Of a DNA stretch of 64,000 bases, positions 25,962 through 45,448 are shown piece by piece (position 1 is the first letter of the stretch; every line of letters starts with the position of its first letter). The position numbers and the translations under genes are program-made. The notes beneath the pieces were generated by a model, which was given only the letters and a program-made list of their open reading frames with translations, made no database searches and was not told the origin of the DNA. The stretch comes from Thermodesulfobacteriota bacterium. GTDB taxonomy: Bacteria; Desulfobacterota; Desulfobacteria; Desulfobacterales; Desulfosudaceae. The stretch spans positions 1 to 64,000 of the forward strand of contig JBFMDX010000015.1 of NCBI GenBank assembly GCA_040753795.1, written 5' to 3'.

Positions 25962-26318
25962 GAGCGTTTTCCCTTCCAGGCAAATCCTTTTTTCCCCGTT
26001 GCCGGGAAAAGCGGCGGTGGCCGCCACCAAACGGTACGGTCCCAAGCCTTATAAAAAGCAAATGCTGTGCCAATGGAATTTTAAACCCCTTCGGAATAAA
26101 AATAAGCGAATACGGTCAGTTGAGTCATCATACCGACAACGGCACGGCCCGCGGCCGGGCCGGTCTGATCAATTCATTACAATCTGTCAATTTTTTCGAC
26201 AAATTTTTCGCCGGGCGTCGCCGCCTCACATGATCCACGGGCCTCCCCGTTTACTATCTTTTATCATAAAAACAAATAGATGTTGAGACAGCGGAATCTT
26301 CATCCCGGGAATTCAGGT
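25962..26318. other. Divergent intergenic region
   Basis: About 360 bases between a minus-strand receiver gene and the plus-strand cluster. Apart from the sigma54 promoter at its right end I see no gene or repeat. An AT-rich stretch lies at 26185-26215 (aattttttcgacaaatttttc) and could hold an activator site. Confidence 0.4.
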
Positions 26319-26334
26319 TGGCATCATGATTGCT
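26319..26334 (+). promoter_or_regulatory. Sigma54 (-24/-12) promoter for the receiver-kinase-transporter cluster
   Basis: TGGCAT-N5-TTGCT, one base away from the consensus TGGCAC-N5-TTGCW. It lies 38 bases before ATG 26372, which gives a short leader and rules out the TTG at 26330 as a start. Confidence 0.7.
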
Positions 26335-36728: not shown

Positions 36729-37652
36729 TTACACCACCCAGACGGTGAAATCCCGGCCGCTGTGGATGACTTTGTAGCTGACCCGTCCCATGAAAAAATC
36801 CTGCACCCGGGACAGGCCCCGGCGGCCGATGACGATGGTGCCGAAATTGCCGGCGTCCGCCTCCCGGACGATTTCCTCGGCCCGGCTGGCCGCCCCGGAA
36901 ACCACTTTTCCGGTAACCTTTTTTTCATCAAAGCCGGCTTTGATCAGCCGCTTTTTGAACTGATCGATTTTCCGGATGACTTCATCCTGCATCAGCGTGA
37001 TAATTTCCGGCGGCAGGTATTCCGGCGTCATGGGGTTTAACGTGCCCATGCCGCGGATGACATGAAAAAGCTCCGCCGAATAATCGTAGGGGCCGAAGTA
37101 CCGTCCGATGAAATCAACGGCCTGGGTGGAGGCGGGTGATCCGTCCACGGCGAGCAACAGCTTTTTGTTGTGGGGCCGTCTGCCGGCCAGCATCATCGGC
37201 ACATCCGGGAATTTGGAGATCAGTTTGGTGGAAACGCTGCCCAGGGTGATGCTTTTGATGGTTCCCATTCCCCGCCGGCGCAGGATAACCGAGTCATATC
37301 CTTTTTTGCATTCGTCCAGGATGTCCCGGGCGATTCCTTTTTCCCGCTGATGAATTTTTATTTTTACCTGTTTTTCCTCAAAACCGGCGGCAATCAGACG
37401 GCGTTTGGCCTCCGCCATGAATTTTTCAAGTGATTCCAGTTTCTCCTTGCGCCACTCTTCAAAACCTTTCAGGACAGTCGGCCGGATGGGGTCCGTGTCC
37501 AGATCCCAGTAACACTCCGGGATTTCGCTGTAGACCTGATACAGCACCAGCTCTCCCTTGCGGAAGGCTTCCACTTCCCTGATATAGTCAATCGTCATCC
37601 AGGATCGGTCAGAACCGTCGACTAAAACCAGTATTTTCTGTTTTTTCTTCAT
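36729..37652 (-). CDS. Tandem universal stress protein (UspA x2)
   Basis: 307 residues, two UspA domains. The first begins ILVLVDGSDRSWMTIDYI; the second begins LLLAVDGSPASTQAVDFIG and ends with IVIGRRGLSRVQDFFMGRVS, matching the ATP-binding pattern GxxGxxxxxxGSVS (here with G in MGRVS). It is likely to bind ATP. A strong ribosome site (GGGAGGAG) precedes ATG 37652. It is the first gene of an operon with the Pat-type gene and has its own sigma54 promoter 119 bases upstream. It is a paralogue of 45875-46807. Confidence 0.92.
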   Translation of the reverse strand: MKKKQKILVLVDGSDRSWMTIDYIREVEAFRKGELVLYQVYSEIPECYWDLDTDPIRPTVLKGFEEWRKEKLESLEKFMAEAKRRLIAAGFEEKQVKIKIHQREKGIARDILDECKKGYDSVILRRRGMGTIKSITLGSVSTKLISKFPDVPMMLAGRRPHNKKLLLAVDGSPASTQAVDFIGRYFGPYDYSAELFHVIRGMGTLNPMTPEYLPPEIITLMQDEVIRKIDQFKKRLIKAGFDEKKVTGKVVSGAASRAEEIVREADAGNFGTIVIGRRGLSRVQDFFMGRVSYKVIHSGRDFTVWVV

Positions 37653-37770: not shown

Positions 37771-37786
37771 AGCAAATATAGTGCCA
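37771..37786 (-). promoter_or_regulatory. Sigma54 (-24/-12) promoter of the UspA-Pat operon
   Basis: On the minus strand TGGCAC-TATAT-TTGCT, a full match to the consensus TGGCAC-N5-TTGCW, 119 bases upstream of the UspA start codon. Confidence 0.85.
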
Positions 37787-38364: not shown

Positions 38365-38694
38365 TTATTTTTTCATCAGGTCCTGCTTGGTGACATTCAT
38401 TACCTTGGTAGCGATCTTGCGGTTGTCCTCATTTCTGTAGGCAATGCGCAGGATATTTCCGGGTTCGGGTTTGGCGCCGATTTTCGCCTGCGAAACATCA
38501 TATTCGCTTTCAATATTCGTAGCCACCCCGTATTTTGCTTCCTTGCTGAAGTTGGTGTCGTACTCTTTAATTTTAATTATTTTGCTTTCCATATTGTATT
38601 CCAGGCATTCTCCCTGGACGACTTCCTCGGCCAAAGCGGAAGTGGTCAGTAACAACCCGAAAATACAGATACCGATGATCAGATATGATTTCAT
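38365..38694 (-). CDS. Small secreted protein of the TauE/SafE operon
   Basis: 109 residues with a signal peptide (basic MKSY, hydrophobic core, cleavage near TSALA-EE), then a compact beta-rich, lysine-rich domain ending NVTKQDLMKK. A ribosome site aaaggaga is present. No family is recognised. It sits 48 bases downstream of the transporter gene, so a periplasmic role connected with the transported anion is possible. Confidence 0.75.
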   Translation of the reverse strand: MKSYLIIGICIFGLLLTTSALAEEVVQGECLEYNMESKIIKIKEYDTNFSKEAKYGVATNIESEYDVSQAKIGAKPEPGNILRIAYRNEDNRKIATKVMNVTKQDLMKK

Positions 38695-38742: not shown

Positions 38743-39765
38743 TCATATTTCTGCAGCCGCTTTTTTCTCTCTTAATTCCTCGATAGCCCCCGCCAGCATG
38801 ATCTTGACGATGTAGACGCAGATGGCGCCGATGGTACCCAGAATCAGTACCGCGGCGGCTGAATTGAAACCGAATTCCTTCAGGATGATGGAAATCATGC
38901 AGCAGATAACCGCGATACCGAAGGCGATACGAATGCCGTAGCCCTTGGCGTACTTGGTGGCCACCGTGCCGATCTGGGCGCCGATGGCCGCGCCGGTCAG
39001 CATGACGAAGACCGCCACGATTTCGATCCGGCCCTTGATGGCGTAGGTGAAGGCACCGTAGAGGCCGGAAATCATGACCTCAAACAGGTCCGTGCCCACG
39101 GCGATATGGGTCGGGCAGCCGATCAGGTAAACCAGGGAAGGCATGCGGATCAGCCCGCCGCCGATGCCCAGAAAACCGGCCAGTATGCCGGTGAGCAAGC
39201 TCACGGACATGGGCAGCCAGGCGGAGCAGGTAAAACCGGCGTTCTTGAAATGGACCATGGGCGGGATCTTGATTTTATGAAGGCTTTTGTACCAGGTGAT
39301 GCCTTCGGCCCCGTGTTCGCCCACGTCTCCGGCCGCTTTTTTCCGGGTGGCTTTATAGTAGTCATAGAAGACCAAAAACGCGATCAGGGACAGCAGGCCC
39401 ACATACACCCAACGCACGACCGTTCCTATATTGCCGGCCTTTTCAAGGTGCATGACAATTTGAGCGCCTATTTCAATGCCTACCATGGTACCCACGACCA
39501 TCACCATCCCGAGCTTGTAGTCAACATTGCCGAACTTGGAATGACGGATGGTGGATACCATGGATTTGCCGGCGATATGGGCCATGTCCGTACCAATGGC
39601 AAAGGCCATGGGAAAGCCCAGAATATTCAGCCCCGGCGTTACCATCCAGGCACCGCCCATTCCGAAAAATCCGCCGATGGTGCCTACGGCAAATCCGATC
39701 AACACCAGCCCCGGCCAGAAGATATTCAACCCTGCTATCGGCATATACATGTATAACCAGTCCAT
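38743..39765 (-). CDS. TauE/SafE family anion permease
   Basis: 340 residues, about 8-9 membrane helices in two repeats. The first repeat has VGTIGGFFGMGGAWMVTPGLN and the second LTGILAGFLGIGGGLIRMPSL, the paired glycine-rich signatures of the family (long motif at residues ~26-46 and ~190-210). Members export or import sulfite, sulfate, taurine-derived sulfonates or sulfoacetate. Sulfate-reducing bacteria carry several copies near small membrane proteins, as here. Ribosome site aaggag at ATG 39765. It is the second gene of a four-gene operon behind a sigma54 promoter. Confidence 0.9.
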   Translation of the reverse strand: MDWLYMYMPIAGLNIFWPGLVLIGFAVGTIGGFFGMGGAWMVTPGLNILGFPMAFAIGTDMAHIAGKSMVSTIRHSKFGNVDYKLGMVMVVGTMVGIEIGAQIVMHLEKAGNIGTVVRWVYVGLLSLIAFLVFYDYYKATRKKAAGDVGEHGAEGITWYKSLHKIKIPPMVHFKNAGFTCSAWLPMSVSLLTGILAGFLGIGGGLIRMPSLVYLIGCPTHIAVGTDLFEVMISGLYGAFTYAIKGRIEIVAVFVMLTGAAIGAQIGTVATKYAKGYGIRIAFGIAVICCMISIILKEFGFNSAAAVLILGTIGAICVYIVKIMLAGAIEELREKKAAAEI

Positions 39766-39800: not shown

Positions 39801-40118
39801 TCAATGCTCCAGTATCTTCCGGCTCTTCAGGTCCAGACCGGTTTTCGACATGAGCCAGTCCATTAAAAATCCCAGGAGTGCGCCATAGGCAGCTGTAAGA
39901 ACCGTGCACCAGGTGGCAAAAATCACCATGTTGTGATTGTATGCGTCGGCCATGTACTTCATAAAGGCGGTATACAGTCCGTCACCCATCAGAACCCTGG
40001 TATCCGCGACCACGATCAGCTCGCTTGCTCCGCCGCCTCCTCCTGCCATCGCCATGGACGGTAACAGCAGCGCCAGAACAATGAAACAGCATACTGTAAC
40101 TCGAATTTTCTTTGCCAT
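39801..40118 (-). CDS. Small membrane protein, first gene of the TauE/SafE operon
   Basis: 105 residues. A signal-like N-terminus (residues 1-25, ending SMAMAGGGGG), a middle segment and a second hydrophobic helix (~65-88) with a cytosolic basic tail (KTGLDLKSRKILEH). Proteins of this size and shape occur beside TauE/SafE genes in sulfate reducers, but I cannot assign a function. A strong ribosome site (AAGGAGG) is present, and the sigma54 promoter lies ~100 bases upstream. Confidence 0.75.
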   Translation of the reverse strand: MAKKIRVTVCCFIVLALLLPSMAMAGGGGGASELIVVADTRVLMGDGLYTAFMKYMADAYNHNMVIFATWCTVLTAAYGALLGFLMDWLMSKTGLDLKSRKILEH

Positions 40119-40208
40119 GATCTTTTCCTCCTTACAGTTAGTTAGTGGTTTTTAAAATATGTTGACTTGAACTTGGTTTGGTTGCACAATTATTTTGACG
40201 AATGAGAT

Positions 40209-40224
40209 AGCAATACCCGTGCCA
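40209..40224 (-). promoter_or_regulatory. Sigma54 promoter of the TauE/SafE operon
   Basis: Minus strand TGGCAC-GGGTA-TTGCT, a full consensus match, 91 bases upstream of the first operon gene. It faces away from the plus-strand promoter 8 bases to its right. Confidence 0.85.
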
Positions 40225-40232
40225 TGATTGTA

Positions 40233-40248
40233 TGGCACCCGGATTGCG
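40233..40248 (+). promoter_or_regulatory. Sigma54 promoter of the membrane-bound activator gene
   Basis: Plus strand TGGCAC-CCGGA-TTGCG, matching the consensus except for the last base, 58 bases upstream of ATG 40306. It lies back to back with the TauE/SafE promoter, with 8 bases between their -24 elements. Confidence 0.8.
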
Positions 40249-40305
40249 ATATTTACAAATATTTTATAGATATTTGATTTAAAGAATAATATTCAGGAAA
40301 TTGTG

Positions 40306-42825
40306 ATGGGTATATTAGATCGGTTTGCTGAAGGAATGGCCAACGCCTCCCCTAATCGTGCAAAAGGGTTCAGCTTGCGAACCCGGCTTCTCATGTACAT
40401 TATCCCCGCGGTGGTTCTTGTTCTGATGCTGACTGGATATATTAACTATCAGACATCATTAAATTTTATAAACGAAGCCCTGGAGCGGTCCAGCCGTATT
40501 CAGGTAAAGGCCATGGCCCACGAGATCGATTCGCTTTTTGCGCGGTGCCGGGAGGATTTGCTTCTTGTCGCGCAAGTTGCCGGTGACGGAAGGGGGTTGC
40601 ACGAAAACTTTTCACGTCTGGTGGCGACTCGGAAAACAGACTATCATGAATTACTCTTTATCTCGCATAAAAAAGGCCATCATATTTTTCTTCTGGCAAA
40701 AGGGAATCAGATTTTTCCGGTTTCCCAGGAGGCCATCGCTGATATTACACCCGATCCGTTTGTTACCATCGGCTATCTGGAAAAACTGAATGCCGGAGAT
40801 GTCTGGATTTCCCCGGTTACGGAAGTACAGGAACCCTTTCCCACTGACAATCATCCGGACCAGAAGATCCGTTCCCATGTCATTTATTTTGGAACGCCCT
40901 GTTATTCCGATAATGGAGAAAAGTCCGGTTATCTGCTGTTGTCTCTGGATGTCCGTTTTATCCGTAATCTCCTTTCTGTTTTAAATTCGCCCCGTTCACC
41001 TCTGTGGGCTTTTTCACGGACGTCAGAAACCCGTTTTATCTATCTGTTCGATCTGGAAGGATGGATTCTTTTTCAATCAGAAGATCCGGAAGCGGTGGAT
41101 CTGGATCTGACCACTCATCTGGCCCGGATGGATTACAGCTATGGAACCCTGGGAAAGCCGGGGCTGCCCTTTGCCTACAGGCCCGGATCGATTTATCAGC
41201 CGTTCTGGAAAATGGTGAAAGACGTCGAGGCTGGTAAACACGAACTGATTGAGTTGAAAGCCGCTCCTCATGAGGGGCAGACCGTGCGGGACTATTACCT
41301 GACGTATACCCCGGTTTCTTTTGAAGGCCGGGTATACGCCGGTCTGGCTTATATCGATCGTTCCCGGTTTGCCCTGCTGGCCCAGTACAAGCATTTGGAC
41401 ACCATGCTGATTCTATCCCTTATCACCATCCTTGTTATCTCTTCGGTGATTTTCGTTCTTTCTCATATGATTACCAAACCCATTTACAAACTGGCCGGAG
41501 CGGTGGCTGATACGCAAAACCGTCCGCTTGAGCCGATCCGGATTAAATCGTCGATTTACGAGGTCCGGATGCTGCAGCAGGCCATCAACGCCATGATCGA
41601 AGCGATCAAGGCCCAGATCGTCGCCATCCGGGAACAGGAAAAACGGATCCGGAGTGTGGAAAACAAGGAGAAAATCAATCTGGAGGAAGCGTTCCCCGCG
41701 GTTACGCAACCGACATCCGCGGATGACCTGCCGGAGATCGTCGGATTCGGCAGCCGCATGGAACAGTTCAAAGCTTCTATCCGCAAAGCGTCCCGGGCCG
41801 ACGCCGATGTCCTGATTATCGGTGAAACCGGCACTGGCAAGCAGCTGGCCGCCGAAGCAATCCACCGGCACAGCCGGCGGTCCGGCCGGCCGTTTATTTC
41901 GGTGAACTGTGGTGAACTGTCGGAAAACCTGCTGCTGGACACCCTTTTCGGTCATGTCAAAGGCGCCTTTACGGAAGCCCGGACCGACCGCCGCGGCGCT
42001 TTCCTGGAAGCCGACGGCGGCACGATTTTTCTGGACGAAATCCAGACCGCTTCACCCAACGTGCAGCAGGCGCTTCTCCGGGCGGTGGCCATGCGCACCA
42101 TAAAGCAGCTGGGCTCCGATCAGGACATCGCCATGGACGTGCGGGTAATCTGCGCCACCAATGAAGACCTGAACCGGATGATCGAAAAGCAGCAGTTCCG
42201 GGCCGACCTGTATTACCGGATTAACGTGATCACCATCAATACCCCTCCTTTGCGGGAGCAGAAGGAAAATATTCCGGTGCTGATCAACCATTTCCTGGAA
42301 CAGGTCAGGACATCAACCGGACGCAGGACGCTGGGGATCAGCAAAGGAGCGCTGGAAAAGATGAAAAATCATGACTGGCCGGGCAATATCCGGGAACTGA
42401 AGAACGCCATTACCCGGGCTGGAGTCATGTGCGAAGGCAATACCATTCAGGCCGGTGATATCCTGATCGAAGGCGGCGGTTATCCGGACGCGGACATGGA
42501 TATCTCCGCCGATCCTGAAACAAGGCTGACTTATCCTTCCCTGCTGTCGGAAGAAAATATTGCCGGCAACGGAAACGGCAGTCGTTCTCAACGGGCGGTG
42601 TCAATAGCCGGATTTCAGAACGGTATTCCTCTCAATGAACGCCAGAAGCGGGTTTATCCCTATATCCTCTCCCGGGGGACTATCACCCGCAGCGAGTATC
42701 AGGCCCAGGCCGGGGGAAGCATTTCTTCCCGGACCGCCATTTATGATCTTCAAGACCTGGTGCAGAAAGGGCTGCTGAAGAAAGAGGGCCTTGGCCCGGC
42801 CACGCGATACCTGACGCCGGATTGA
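40306..42825 (+). CDS. Membrane-bound sigma54-type AAA+ activator with periplasmic sensor
   Basis: 839 residues. Membrane helix ~28-50, a large periplasmic Cache-like sensor (~50-365), second helix (~367-390), HAMP linker, then an AAA+ domain (~475-715): GETGTGKQLAAEAI, GGTIFLDEIQ and FRADLYYRINV. The sigma54-contact loop reads GAFTEA (residues 553-558) instead of GAFTGA. The usual Fis-type helix-turn-helix is replaced by a winged helix at the C-terminus (LNERQKRVYPYILSRGTIT). It would sense a periplasmic ligand and act on sigma54 promoters while tethered to the membrane. ATG 40306 with AGGA upstream is preferred to GTG 40303. Its own promoter and that of the divergent TauE operon are sigma54-type, suggesting autoregulation. 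Confidence 0.9.
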   Translation: MGILDRFAEGMANASPNRAKGFSLRTRLLMYIIPAVVLVLMLTGYINYQTSLNFINEALERSSRIQVKAMAHEIDSLFARCREDLLLVAQVAGDGRGLHENFSRLVATRKTDYHELLFISHKKGHHIFLLAKGNQIFPVSQEAIADITPDPFVTIGYLEKLNAGDVWISPVTEVQEPFPTDNHPDQKIRSHVIYFGTPCYSDNGEKSGYLLLSLDVRFIRNLLSVLNSPRSPLWAFSRTSETRFIYLFDLEGWILFQSEDPEAVDLDLTTHLARMDYSYGTLGKPGLPFAYRPGSIYQPFWKMVKDVEAGKHELIELKAAPHEGQTVRDYYLTYTPVSFEGRVYAGLAYIDRSRFALLAQYKHLDTMLILSLITILVISSVIFVLSHMITKPIYKLAGAVADTQNRPLEPIRIKSSIYEVRMLQQAINAMIEAIKAQIVAIREQEKRIRSVENKEKINLEEAFPAVTQPTSADDLPEIVGFGSRMEQFKASIRKASRADADVLIIGETGTGKQLAAEAIHRHSRRSGRPFISVNCGELSENLLLDTLFGHVKGAFTEARTDRRGAFLEADGGTIFLDEIQTASPNVQQALLRAVAMRTIKQLGSDQDIAMDVRVICATNEDLNRMIEKQQFRADLYYRINVITINTPPLREQKENIPVLINHFLEQVRTSTGRRTLGISKGALEKMKNHDWPGNIRELKNAITRAGVMCEGNTIQAGDILIEGGGYPDADMDISADPETRLTYPSLLSEENIAGNGNGSRSQRAVSIAGFQNGIPLNERQKRVYPYILSRGTITRSEYQAQAGGSISSRTAIYDLQDLVQKGLLKKEGLGPATRYLTPD

Positions 42826-42844: not shown

Positions 42845-45448
42845 ATGTGGAAACAGATCAAAGCGCTGCTGAAAAAGAAGTCCGGGCCGGGACATGATCC
42901 GGCCGGGATGATGAATATTTTCCGGAAAAAATACGTCAATTTCAAGGCGCTGCTGGAATCCAACGCCGAACTGCTGAAGATCATCGCCGGCATGGAGGAG
43001 AAGCTGACCGGCCAGTATGTTTTCGGCATGTCCTATATCCGGTCGGAGATGGTGCGGGTTGTTTATCATGCCTTCCGGATGGTCAAGAGTTTTGAGGATC
43101 TGTCCGGGCGGACCTATCCGGATCTGCATGGGACGCTGAACGGCATCCAGGCGGCCGTGAATCAGGAACTGGAACTGAAGAACGTTCCCCGGTTGCCGGA
43201 CGTGGTTCTTCCCTACACGCGCATCACCCACGACATGGTGGATTATGTCGGCGGCAAGAACGCCAACCTCGGGGAAGTGAAGAGCCGCTGTCATCTGCCG
43301 ATTCCCAGGGGGTTTGCCATTACCACCACCGCCTTTGACGAACTGATCGAGTATAACGATATCATGGATGAGATCCGCAAGCTGAAGATGGAAATCAGCG
43401 GTGAGGATCCCCAGTCCCTGATGCGGGTCAGTCATGATATTCAGCGGCTGATTATCGAGGCTGAAATCCCGAAGGCGGTAGAGGAGGCGATCCTCAAGGC
43501 GTATGAACAGGAGATCAGCCCGGAGCGGTCGGTGCCGGTGGCCCTGCGCAGCAGCGCCATCGGAGAGGACAGCGAACTATCCTACGCCGGACAGTACCAG
43601 AGTTTTCTCAATGTTCCCGCCGGGGACCTGATCGGCAAGTACAAGGCGGTGCTGGCCAGCCTGTTCACGCCGCGGGCCGTTTCCTACCGGCTGCACATGG
43701 GGATCCCCTTTGAAGAAGCGGCCATGAGCGTGGCCTGTCTGGAAATGATCCGGGCCCGGGCCGGAGGGGTCGTCTATACCCGCCATCCCTTTCAACTGAC
43801 GGAAAACAACATCATCATCAACGCCACTTGGGGGCTGGGGTCCTATGTGGTGGACGGCACCGTTTCGCCGGATGCCTTCGAGGTGTCCAAGACCTCACCG
43901 CCGGCGCTGCTGAAAAAGACGATTGCTTCCAAATCCGTAGAACTGACGACCAACCCGGACGGGTATCTCATGGAAACACCCGTCAGCGGGGATATCCGCC
44001 AGACGCCCTGTCTGACCGATGAGCAGGCCCTGCGGCTGGCGGAATACGCCCTGAAACTGGAAGCGCATTTCCAGGGCCCCCAGGATATTGAATGGGCGCT
44101 GGACGGCGACGGGAACCTGATCATTCTCCAGAGCCGGCCCCTGATGATCGAGCGGTGCGGGGATGAGACCTGCGCCCCGCAGCGTTTCGAACAATACCCG
44201 GTGCTGGTCGAAGGCGGTGAAGCGGCCAGCCCCGGCGTCGGATGGGGTCCGGCCTGTATCGTCCGTTCCGAGGAAGACCTGCTTTCCTTTCCCGAAGGCG
44301 GCGTGCTGGTCGCCGCCAATTCCTCCCCCGAATACGTCATCGTCATGCCCCTGGCCCGGGCCATCGTTACCAACCTGGGCAGTATTACCGGCCACATGGC
44401 CTCCCTGGCCCGTGAATACAAGATTCCGGCGCTGCTCAACACCAAGAACGCCACCCAGGCCATTCAGCCGGGGGAGATCGTTACCGTCGATGCCTTCGGT
44501 TCCCGGGTTTATGCCGGCAAGGTGGAGGAACTGCTGGATGTTCAGTGGCATCGCGGGGCCTTCATGAAAAAGACGCCGGTGTATCAGGTCCTGGAAAGAC
44601 TCGCGCAACATGTCGTTCCGCTGCATTTAAAGAATCCCCGGTCCCGCAGGTTCACGGCCGGCAACTGCCGGACCATCCATGACATCGTGCGGTTTACCCA
44701 CGAGAAGTCTTACGGCGAGATTTTTCACATCAGCGATTTTACCTCGGATCACGGCCACATTTCCGTCAAGCTGTCCGCGCCCCTGCCCATTGATCTGTAT
44801 GTGATCGACCTGGGCGGCGGACTGGCCGCCCCGGAAAAGGCGAGAAAGATCACCGTCGATCATGTCGTTTCGACGCCCTTCAGGGCTTTGCTGGAAGGCA
44901 TGCTTCACAAGGACCTGAAACCCCTTGAACCCCGGCCCATCGACGTGCGGGGATTCCTTTCGGTCGTCAGCCAGCAGATGCTGGCGCCGCCGAATCCGGT
45001 GGTTGAACGTTTCGGGGATCGGAGCTACGCGATTATTTCCGACAAATACGTGAACTTCAGTTCCCGGGTGGGCTACCACTATAGCATCCTGGATACCTTC
45101 TGCGGGCAGACGGCCATGAAAAACTACATTCATTTCCAGTTCAAGGGCGGGGCCGCCGACAACGTCCGGCGAAACCGGCGGGCCCGGCTGATTCGCAACA
45201 TTCTTGAAGCCAGGGATTTTCTGGTGGAGGTCCAGGGAGACCGGGTCACCGCCCGTTTCAACAAGCAGGCCATGGAACTGGTCCTGGAAAAGCTTGACGT
45301 CCTGGGAAGGCTGCTCATCTTTACCCGGCAGATGGACATGCTGATGAACACGGAGCGAAGCGTTGACGATCTGTCCGCCCGGTTTCTGGATGGCTGCTAC
45401 GACCTGGAAAAACCCCGGGCCTGTCGGGCGGAACCGGAAAAAGGTTGA
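42845..45448 (+). CDS. PEP-synthase-like protein: PEP/pyruvate-binding and phosphohistidine domains, no C-terminal barrel
   Basis: 867 residues. An N-terminal helical part of ~120 residues is followed by the PPDK nucleotide-binding domain (YVGGKNANLGEV, VPVALRSSAIGEDSELSYAG, IEWALDGDGNLIILQSRP) and the swivelling phosphohistidine domain with His517 in GSITGHMASLARE. After ~residue 575 the expected PEP-binding TIM barrel is absent; the last ~290 residues are unrelated to it. It could transfer phosphate from ATP to its own His but not finish the PEP reaction, so a regulatory or phosphotransfer role is likely. It is 19 bases behind the sigma54 activator, in one operon. GGAGGAG precedes ATG. Confidence 0.8.
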   Translation: MWKQIKALLKKKSGPGHDPAGMMNIFRKKYVNFKALLESNAELLKIIAGMEEKLTGQYVFGMSYIRSEMVRVVYHAFRMVKSFEDLSGRTYPDLHGTLNGIQAAVNQELELKNVPRLPDVVLPYTRITHDMVDYVGGKNANLGEVKSRCHLPIPRGFAITTTAFDELIEYNDIMDEIRKLKMEISGEDPQSLMRVSHDIQRLIIEAEIPKAVEEAILKAYEQEISPERSVPVALRSSAIGEDSELSYAGQYQSFLNVPAGDLIGKYKAVLASLFTPRAVSYRLHMGIPFEEAAMSVACLEMIRARAGGVVYTRHPFQLTENNIIINATWGLGSYVVDGTVSPDAFEVSKTSPPALLKKTIASKSVELTTNPDGYLMETPVSGDIRQTPCLTDEQALRLAEYALKLEAHFQGPQDIEWALDGDGNLIILQSRPLMIERCGDETCAPQRFEQYPVLVEGGEAASPGVGWGPACIVRSEEDLLSFPEGGVLVAANSSPEYVIVMPLARAIVTNLGSITGHMASLAREYKIPALLNTKNATQAIQPGEIVTVDAFGSRVYAGKVEELLDVQWHRGAFMKKTPVYQVLERLAQHVVPLHLKNPRSRRFTAGNCRTIHDIVRFTHEKSYGEIFHISDFTSDHGHISVKLSAPLPIDLYVIDLGGGLAAPEKARKITVDHVVSTPFRALLEGMLHKDLKPLEPRPIDVRGFLSVVSQQMLAPPNPVVERFGDRSYAIISDKYVNFSSRVGYHYSILDTFCGQTAMKNYIHFQFKGGAADNVRRNRRARLIRNILEARDFLVEVQGDRVTARFNKQAMELVLEKLDVLGRLLIFTRQMDMLMNTERSVDDLSARFLDGCYDLEKPRACRAEPEKG

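Follow-up and report, generated by a model that had tools for sequence, protein, structure and literature searches.

A Candidate Lineage-Specific Sigma54 Promoter Facing the Activator Gene in a Divergent DVU0150/DVU0151-Type Control Region

The segment 40209–40248 of the window, by which the whole 64,000-nucleotide stretch analyzed is meant, is proposed to form the common core of a divergent control region of the DVU0150/DVU0151 type, with one sigma54-type site facing a transporter operon and another facing the gene for a sigma54 activator (EBP). We regard it as an evenly balanced proposition that a lineage-specific sigma54 promoter has taken over an ancestral sigma70 slot on the activator side, and that one activator drives both promoters and thereby couples the two operons. 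According to this proposal, the activator-ward site would serve the operon of the activator and a PEP-synthase-like protein in place of the ancestral sigma70 promoter; its -24 element would have formed where the -35 region used to be, and the TTGC at -12 would overlap a candidate operator of the activator. A signal at the Cache-like region would switch the activator on, which would then drive both its own operon and that of the transporter.

Genes of the Locus and Related Loci

The locus is a DVU0150/DVU0151-type module with the following genes:
38365–38694, minus strand: DUF4881-like gene, the final one on the left (PF16222, E 1.4e-4, under the Pfam cut-off)
38743–39765, minus strand: TauE/SafE (TSUP) transporter gene (PF01925, E 1.6e-42)
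39801–40118, minus strand: DVU0150-family small protein gene (NCBIfam NF040783, 117 bits against a cut-off of 70)
40303–42825, plus strand: DVU0151-type sigma54 activator (EBP) gene (PF00158, E 3.9e-61)
42845–45448, plus strand: PEP-synthase-like protein gene, downstream of the activator (PF01326, PPDK_N; PF00391, mobile domain)

The small protein is hydrophobic and is read here as a membrane protein, and the last ~300 residues of the PEP-synthase-like protein match no Pfam model. For the activator, the ATG at 40306 suits the Shine-Dalgarno sequence at 40295–40299 better than the GTG at 40303. RpoN has one match in the genome. A universal stress protein gene (36729–37652) sits just past the TauE operon, and a good sigma54 site (37771–37786, minus strand, score 16.4) lies upstream of it.

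Searches with the sensor half of the activator matched 36 of the 389 genomes of the order, a search of the class returning the same matching genomes (36/389), and 33 of the 395 genomes of a phylum sample, four of which are common to the order set. Family searches around two genomes, G128 (1 of 12 genomes) and G253 (2 of 36), gave no further loci. In the window's own family only the window matched (1/3), the other two genomes being without a match, so that close relatives cannot inform on conservation. The 66 loci compared here are 65 fetched regions and the window; they include L081, L097 and L099, which are broken or distant, and a single distant relative from a contig scan of the genomes (L031) was left out. 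Divergent DVU0150-like and TauE genes are both present in 58 of the 66, a divergent DUF4881-like homolog in 25 and a PEP-synthase-like homolog downstream of the activator in 33, the window being included in the last two counts and some contigs ending early. The activators of the nearest relatives, L062, L063 and L069, are 53–56% identical to the window's. Activator starts were extrapolated from the alignment in L062, L063, L064, L065, L066 and L090. A quick tree was built from 61 of the 66 activators, those of at least 600 aa; L065 and L066 stayed out for a 7-residue reading, and L069, whose activator runs off the end of its contig, L081 and L097 because they were too short.

The activator is laid out as a Cache-like sensor region, an AAA+ domain and a conserved C-terminal domain. 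Its N-terminal region has a dCache match below the Pfam cut-off, and no Fis-type HTH is among the nine Pfam families listed (E up to 0.001). The C-terminal domain is well conserved in the alignment and is probably, on weak evidence, a winged helix: TrmB is the only profile match to the window's domain (E 0.051, below the cut-off), and the matches to solved structures are weak (best E 0.063), several of them being winged-helix or HTH regulators. Among single-sequence models of this domain, one reached a mean pLDDT of 72.5 with three helices and the other four 39–41; Foldseek gave no match to them at E ≤ 0.001, the top ones being Lrp/AsnC-like. The sigma54-contact loop (41962–41979, plus strand) reads GAFTEA, not GAFTGA. 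A GAF[TS][ED]A loop occurs in 47 of the 66 loci and GAFTDS in one further, and a regular expression found no loop match in 18, several of which are truncated or misread.

Geometry of the Opposed Sites

Three elements were read directly from the sequence:
40209–40224, minus strand: TGGCACGGGTATTGCT, sigma54-type site, -24/-12 promoter of the DVU0150-like/TauE operon (score 18.1; conserved)
40225–40232, no strand: TGATTGTA, 8-bp spacer between the two -24 elements
40233–40248, plus strand: TGGCACCCGGATTGCG, sigma54-type site facing the activator gene (score 12.9; probable lineage-specific promoter)

The description of two outward-facing sigma54-type sites with 8 bases between their -24 elements, first given in a sequence-only reading, is thus correct, and the GG pairs of the two sites are 12 bp apart, centre to centre. 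On an approximate, untrained matrix made from the sigma54 consensus (maximum score 18.9), the scores are 18.1 for the minus site and 12.9 for the plus site. In the window, TGGCACN5TTGCW with at most one mismatch is matched six times against a shuffled mean of 2.08 and maximum of 5. The whole genome has 15 copies of the core TGGCACN5TTGC and 10 of its reversed control, so an isolated match to it alone is weak evidence. Six sites in the 64 kb score at least 12.5; five of these fall at 26–41 kb, and no two of the six other than those at 40209–40248 stand back to back within 60 bp. A second divergent pair of good sites, 26057–26072 (minus strand, 16.8) and 26319–26334 (plus strand, 14.4), is 246 bp apart and flanked by two response-regulator-like reading frames. 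GTGCCAT-N6-ATGGCAC was also considered as an inverted-repeat operator of another regulator. Its arms are the two -24 elements with the AT next to them, and a palindromic operator is unlikely because the other loci with a TauE-ward site keep the left arm without the right.

The Promoter Facing the Transporter Operon

A TauE-ward sigma54 site scoring at least 11 is found in 58 of the 66 loci, the window included, against a chance expectation of 3.3 loci per strand from first-order resampling; it is absent in L081, L097, L099, L101, L106, L108, L110 and L124. Because of this conservation, the minus site is well supported as a conserved, old sigma54 promoter of the DVU0150-like/TauE/DUF4881 operon. 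By convention the C of TTGC is placed at -12. The transcript from the minus site would accordingly start at about 40198, with a predicted leader of ~80 nt to the DVU0150-like gene, and that from the plus site at about 40259, with a predicted leader of ~47 nt to the ATG at 40306.

A Candidate Operator Motif

Two copies of a candidate operator flank or enter the paired sites:
40182–40191, plus strand: TTGCACAATT, candidate EBP operator O1, just downstream of the putative TauE start site
40244–40251, plus strand: TTGCGATA, candidate EBP operator O2, overlapping the -12 element of the plus site

The motif comes from unbiased 8-mer counts over the 66 gaps, made with the TauE-ward sites masked and, in five loci, the activator-ward sites as well. 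The top words include Shine-Dalgarno words together with TTGCGCGA (23 loci against 2.0 expected), TTGCACGA (12 against 1.2) and TTGCGATA (9 of the 66 gaps, the window included, against 0.8), all counts being inflated by kinship of the loci. An operator-like motif is present in 51 of the 66 gaps, by a pattern that was picked after the word counts and has no chance control of its own. In L062, L063 and L069, where the motif reads TTGCRCGAT, TTGCACGAT/TTGCGCGAT stands 19–20 bp upstream of the TauE -24 element; in the window TTGCGATA stands 19 bp upstream of it, and its TTGC is the -12 element of the plus site. Elsewhere among the loci TTGCGATA mostly occupies different positions, often downstream ones, and O1-like copies lie 44–48 bp on the downstream side in L076, L077, L079, L085 and L086, the distance being 43 bp in the window. 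The activator may bind this motif, and under the proposal it would use O1 and O2. TTGCRCGAT would then be a candidate operator for DVU0151-type activators in general, and it may not be new, since a DVU0151 regulon has been predicted, probably from a motif of its own (Kazakov et al., 2015).

The Site Facing the Activator Gene

The plus site matches TGGCAC-N5-TTGC exactly at all 10 core bases, with GG and GC 10 bp apart; TTGC is followed by G where A/T is expected. Of 20,000 first-order resamples of the 184-bp gap, 0.2% contain a plus-strand site scoring 12.9 or more, and over all 66 gaps chance would supply 0.93 loci with a plus-strand site this good (mean of 30 resamplings). When the best plus-strand site alone is retained for each locus, 11 of the 66 score at least 11 against 3.3 expected. 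The hits in L073, L074, L075, L078 and L126 were rejected as promoters; they lack the GG and are operator-like TTGCAC/TTGCAT copies. A count limited to TGG-type sites of at least 11 excludes these five and leaves six EBP-ward sites of the GG type, in the window, L103, L104, L106, L108 and L110. They lie at -70 from the activator start in the window, at -73 and -71 in L103 and L104 (score 16.1) and at -77, -79 and -90 in L106, L108 and L110 (scores 11.3 to 13.5). L103 and L104 carry GG-type sites of at least 11 in both directions, 319 and 309 bp apart. L106, L108 and L110 reverse what most loci show: their activator-ward site outscores a weak TauE-ward match (8.5–10.3).

In the 61-activator tree, the clade of six rows that holds L103, L104, L106, L108 and L110 also contains L102 (support 97); the window groups with L062 and L063 (support 99). 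At least two changes are required among the 14 labelled rows. A sigma54 takeover is favored by the presence of GG-type EBP-ward sites in this separate clade at -71 to -90, compared with -70 in the window. The plus site itself is not conserved, being absent from the three nearest relatives L062, L063 and L069. On these sequence comparisons, a functional plus promoter, and with it a two-promoter reading, is plausible and perhaps slightly to be favored.

What the nearest relatives have in this place is a sigma70-type slot, by alignment TTGACA-N16-TACAAT in L062, TTGACA-N16-TAGAAT in L063 and TTGACA-N16-TAATAT in L069. The window has in the same slot:
40232–40259, plus strand: ATGGCA-N16-TACAAA, possible remnant of the relatives' sigma70 promoter, by alignment

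With a sigma70 matrix that is an approximation, like the sigma54 matrix, the slot scores 13.1 in L062, 13.2 in L063 and 11.4 in L069, and 4.3–4.5 in the window. Measured from the left end of the TauE-ward site, ATGGCA of the window is 23 bases away and the corresponding element of the three relatives 26–27, and this difference of 3–4 bases makes homology of the slot depend on an alignment with short indels. TTGACA at 26–29 bases from that end (scores 8.1–13.2) occurs in at least nine of the 58 loci scanned, namely L062, L063, L069, L089, L092, L093, L094, L095 and L113, all among the best 16 of the 58; L109, also among the best 16, has TTGACG in the slot (score 9.6).

The same letters can be read as no promoter at all: ATGGCA would be an eroded sigma70 -35 element, followed by the operator TTGCGATA, and the sigma54 match would be coincidental. 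A weak sigma70-type promoter would then express the activator, which would repress itself by binding over the promoter. The alignment of ATGGCA-N16-TACAAA with TTGACA-N16-TACAAT of L062 and the operator position common to four loci, 19–20 bp from the TauE -24 element, fit this reading, as does the expectation that about one of the 66 gaps would hold such a sigma54 site by chance. The -12 TTGC appears to be accounted for by the operator already, leaving TGGCAC alone as new. Other weak sigma70-like matches exist in the gap, three on the plus strand at 40090–40330 against 1.1 expected, and these could start the activator transcript instead. There is also a precedent in DVU2106, whose binding site lies over the sigma70 promoter from which it is itself expressed (Fievet et al., 2014). 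However, the match left in the slot is very poor, and the best plus-strand sigma70 match of the gap (9.9; its -35 falls towards TauE, at 40162) is at background level, its score being reached by 11 of 40 resamples. Moreover, TGGCAC exactly spaced from TTGC has to be accepted as an additional coincidence, and GG-type sigma54 sites recur in another clade at a similar distance from the start. That the plus site is no promoter is possible, on balance doubtful.

It is improbable that the plus site acts as a decoy or brake, binding sigma54 polymerase unproductively and so keeping the activator low or modulating the TauE promoter. Sigma54 binding sites beside a promoter may repress or activate it (PMC3844500), and sigma54 can repress overlapping sigma70 promoters (PMC4551910), but the activator would then need another promoter, and none stands out in the gap scans.

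Spacing and Coupling of the Two Promoters

If the sigma54 holoenzyme covers DNA to about -34, both footprints would include the 8-bp spacer, and occupancy is probably one at a time. The claim of the sequence-only reading that both sites could hardly be occupied at once holds to this extent, simultaneous occupancy being sterically unlikely if the holoenzyme reaches about -34. Steric competition between the two promoters is plausible. Under the preferred reading of a sigma54 takeover, two polymerases would contend for the same 8 bp event by event, with the promoters coupled and the flux divided between them; a single shared activator would give coordinated expression with local competition rather than alternative states. 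A further step, more tentative and leaning towards the improbable, is that the sigma factor was changed in place, with the -12 element built from the operator, and that negative autoregulation was thereby turned into a positive loop. The activator, its operators and the two competing polymerases would in that case share ~70 bp (40182–40251).

The opposed-pair pattern GCAAN6TGCCA-N(2–25)-TGGCAN6TTGC occurs once each in four of the 389 order genomes, against a rough chance expectation of ~0.6 at equal base frequencies and none for the reversed control, and in one of 282 genomes of a phylum sample, namely the window. Three of the four order pairs are in divergent gaps (the window, L127 and L130), and L128 is not. 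In L130 the gap separates an AhpC/TSA protein, for which an internal start codon is assumed, from a protein without a Pfam match. In L127 a Na+/sulfate-symporter-like gene is divergent from a response regulator, with the opposed sites 10 bp apart. Two of six searched genomes of its family, both congeners (L132 and L133), have the transporter and divergent response regulator with transporter-ward and regulator-ward sigma54 sites (15.5 and 16.4) that are 208–209 bp apart; being alike, L132 and L133 may amount to a single case. Sites in both directions score 14.4–17.5 across the three loci. Two-sided sigma54 control thus appears to be the common feature and tight spacing incidental, since spacings of 10 and 208–209 bp in this group imply that tight spacing is unnecessary. 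L127 (1500–1541) and L132/L133 (3058–3298) form a small natural spacing series.

An exclusive switch, in which mutually exclusive occupancy would commit a cell to one of the two operons, had been suggested from the arrangement and is very improbable. In its favor, the 8-bp spacing implies steric competition, and sigma54 holoenzyme competes in vitro with an overlapping sigma70 promoter on E. coli promoters (PMC4551910). Against it, the opposed 8-bp arrangement is found in none of the other 65 loci by the best plus-strand site of each; the GG-type sites of L103 and L104 and the opposed sites of the L127-type congeners are hundreds of base pairs apart; L062, L063 and L069 have a sigma70-type promoter in the EBP-side slot; and no memory element is apparent. 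One operon encodes the expected activator of the other (predicted for DVU0151; Kazakov et al., 2015), which predicts co-activation, and a cell that turned the activator off could not maintain expression of the transporter.

Comparison with Known Systems

The closest known system is DVU0150-DVU0146/DVU0151 of Desulfovibrio vulgaris, in which DVU0151 is predicted to target DVU0150-DVU0146 in a sigma54-dependent manner and which shares the DVU0150-family gene with the window (Kazakov et al., 2015; PMC4641369). Like the window EBP, DVU0151 is divergent from the sigma54-dependent operon that is its predicted target; this one-component EBP probably ends in a winged helix and has the loop GAFSEA, whereas the window has GAFTEA (PMC4641369). 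GAFSEA is classed there among the loop variants that would keep activation, a list on which GAFTEA does not stand. A sigma54 promoter of DVU0151 itself is unmentioned in the part of that paper drawn on here, whereas the window has sigma54-type sites on both sides, 8 bp apart. By the DVU0150-family match and the shared architecture, the window activator appears orthologous to DVU0151. Within the open-licence PMC literature, a search on the names DVU0149–DVU0151 led to PMC4641369 only, and no description of an 8-bp sigma54 pair was found by title and beginning of abstract.

Opposed sigma54 promoters under one activator have been described. DVU2106 activates the two divergent sigma54 operons orp1 and orp2 together and represses its own sigma70 promoter (Fievet et al., 2014; PMC3897727). 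This promoter overlaps its own binding site, as we infer for L062, L063 and L069, whereas the window activator gene faces a sigma54-type site; IHF sites lie between the promoters and the EBP sites of orp1/orp2, unlike in the window (PMC3897727). In soxB/soxR/soxC of Bacillus thuringiensis, one sigma54 activator serves two opposing sigma54 promoters from one binding sequence, and SoxR, of a family different from the window activator, inhibits its own expression (PMC4941409). L127, L132 and L133 resemble the window in having opposed sigma54 sites between a transporter and a regulator, but their proteins are unrelated and the spacing is 208–209 bp in the two congeners.

The opposed sigma54 arrangement is known in kind, and the interesting part would be the putative in-place replacement of sigma70 by sigma54. 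If the plus site is used, the window and its nearest relatives would form a natural before/after pair for such a replacement at one gene, and the 8-bp pair would offer a compact test of two same-activator sigma54 holoenzymes unable to sit side by side.
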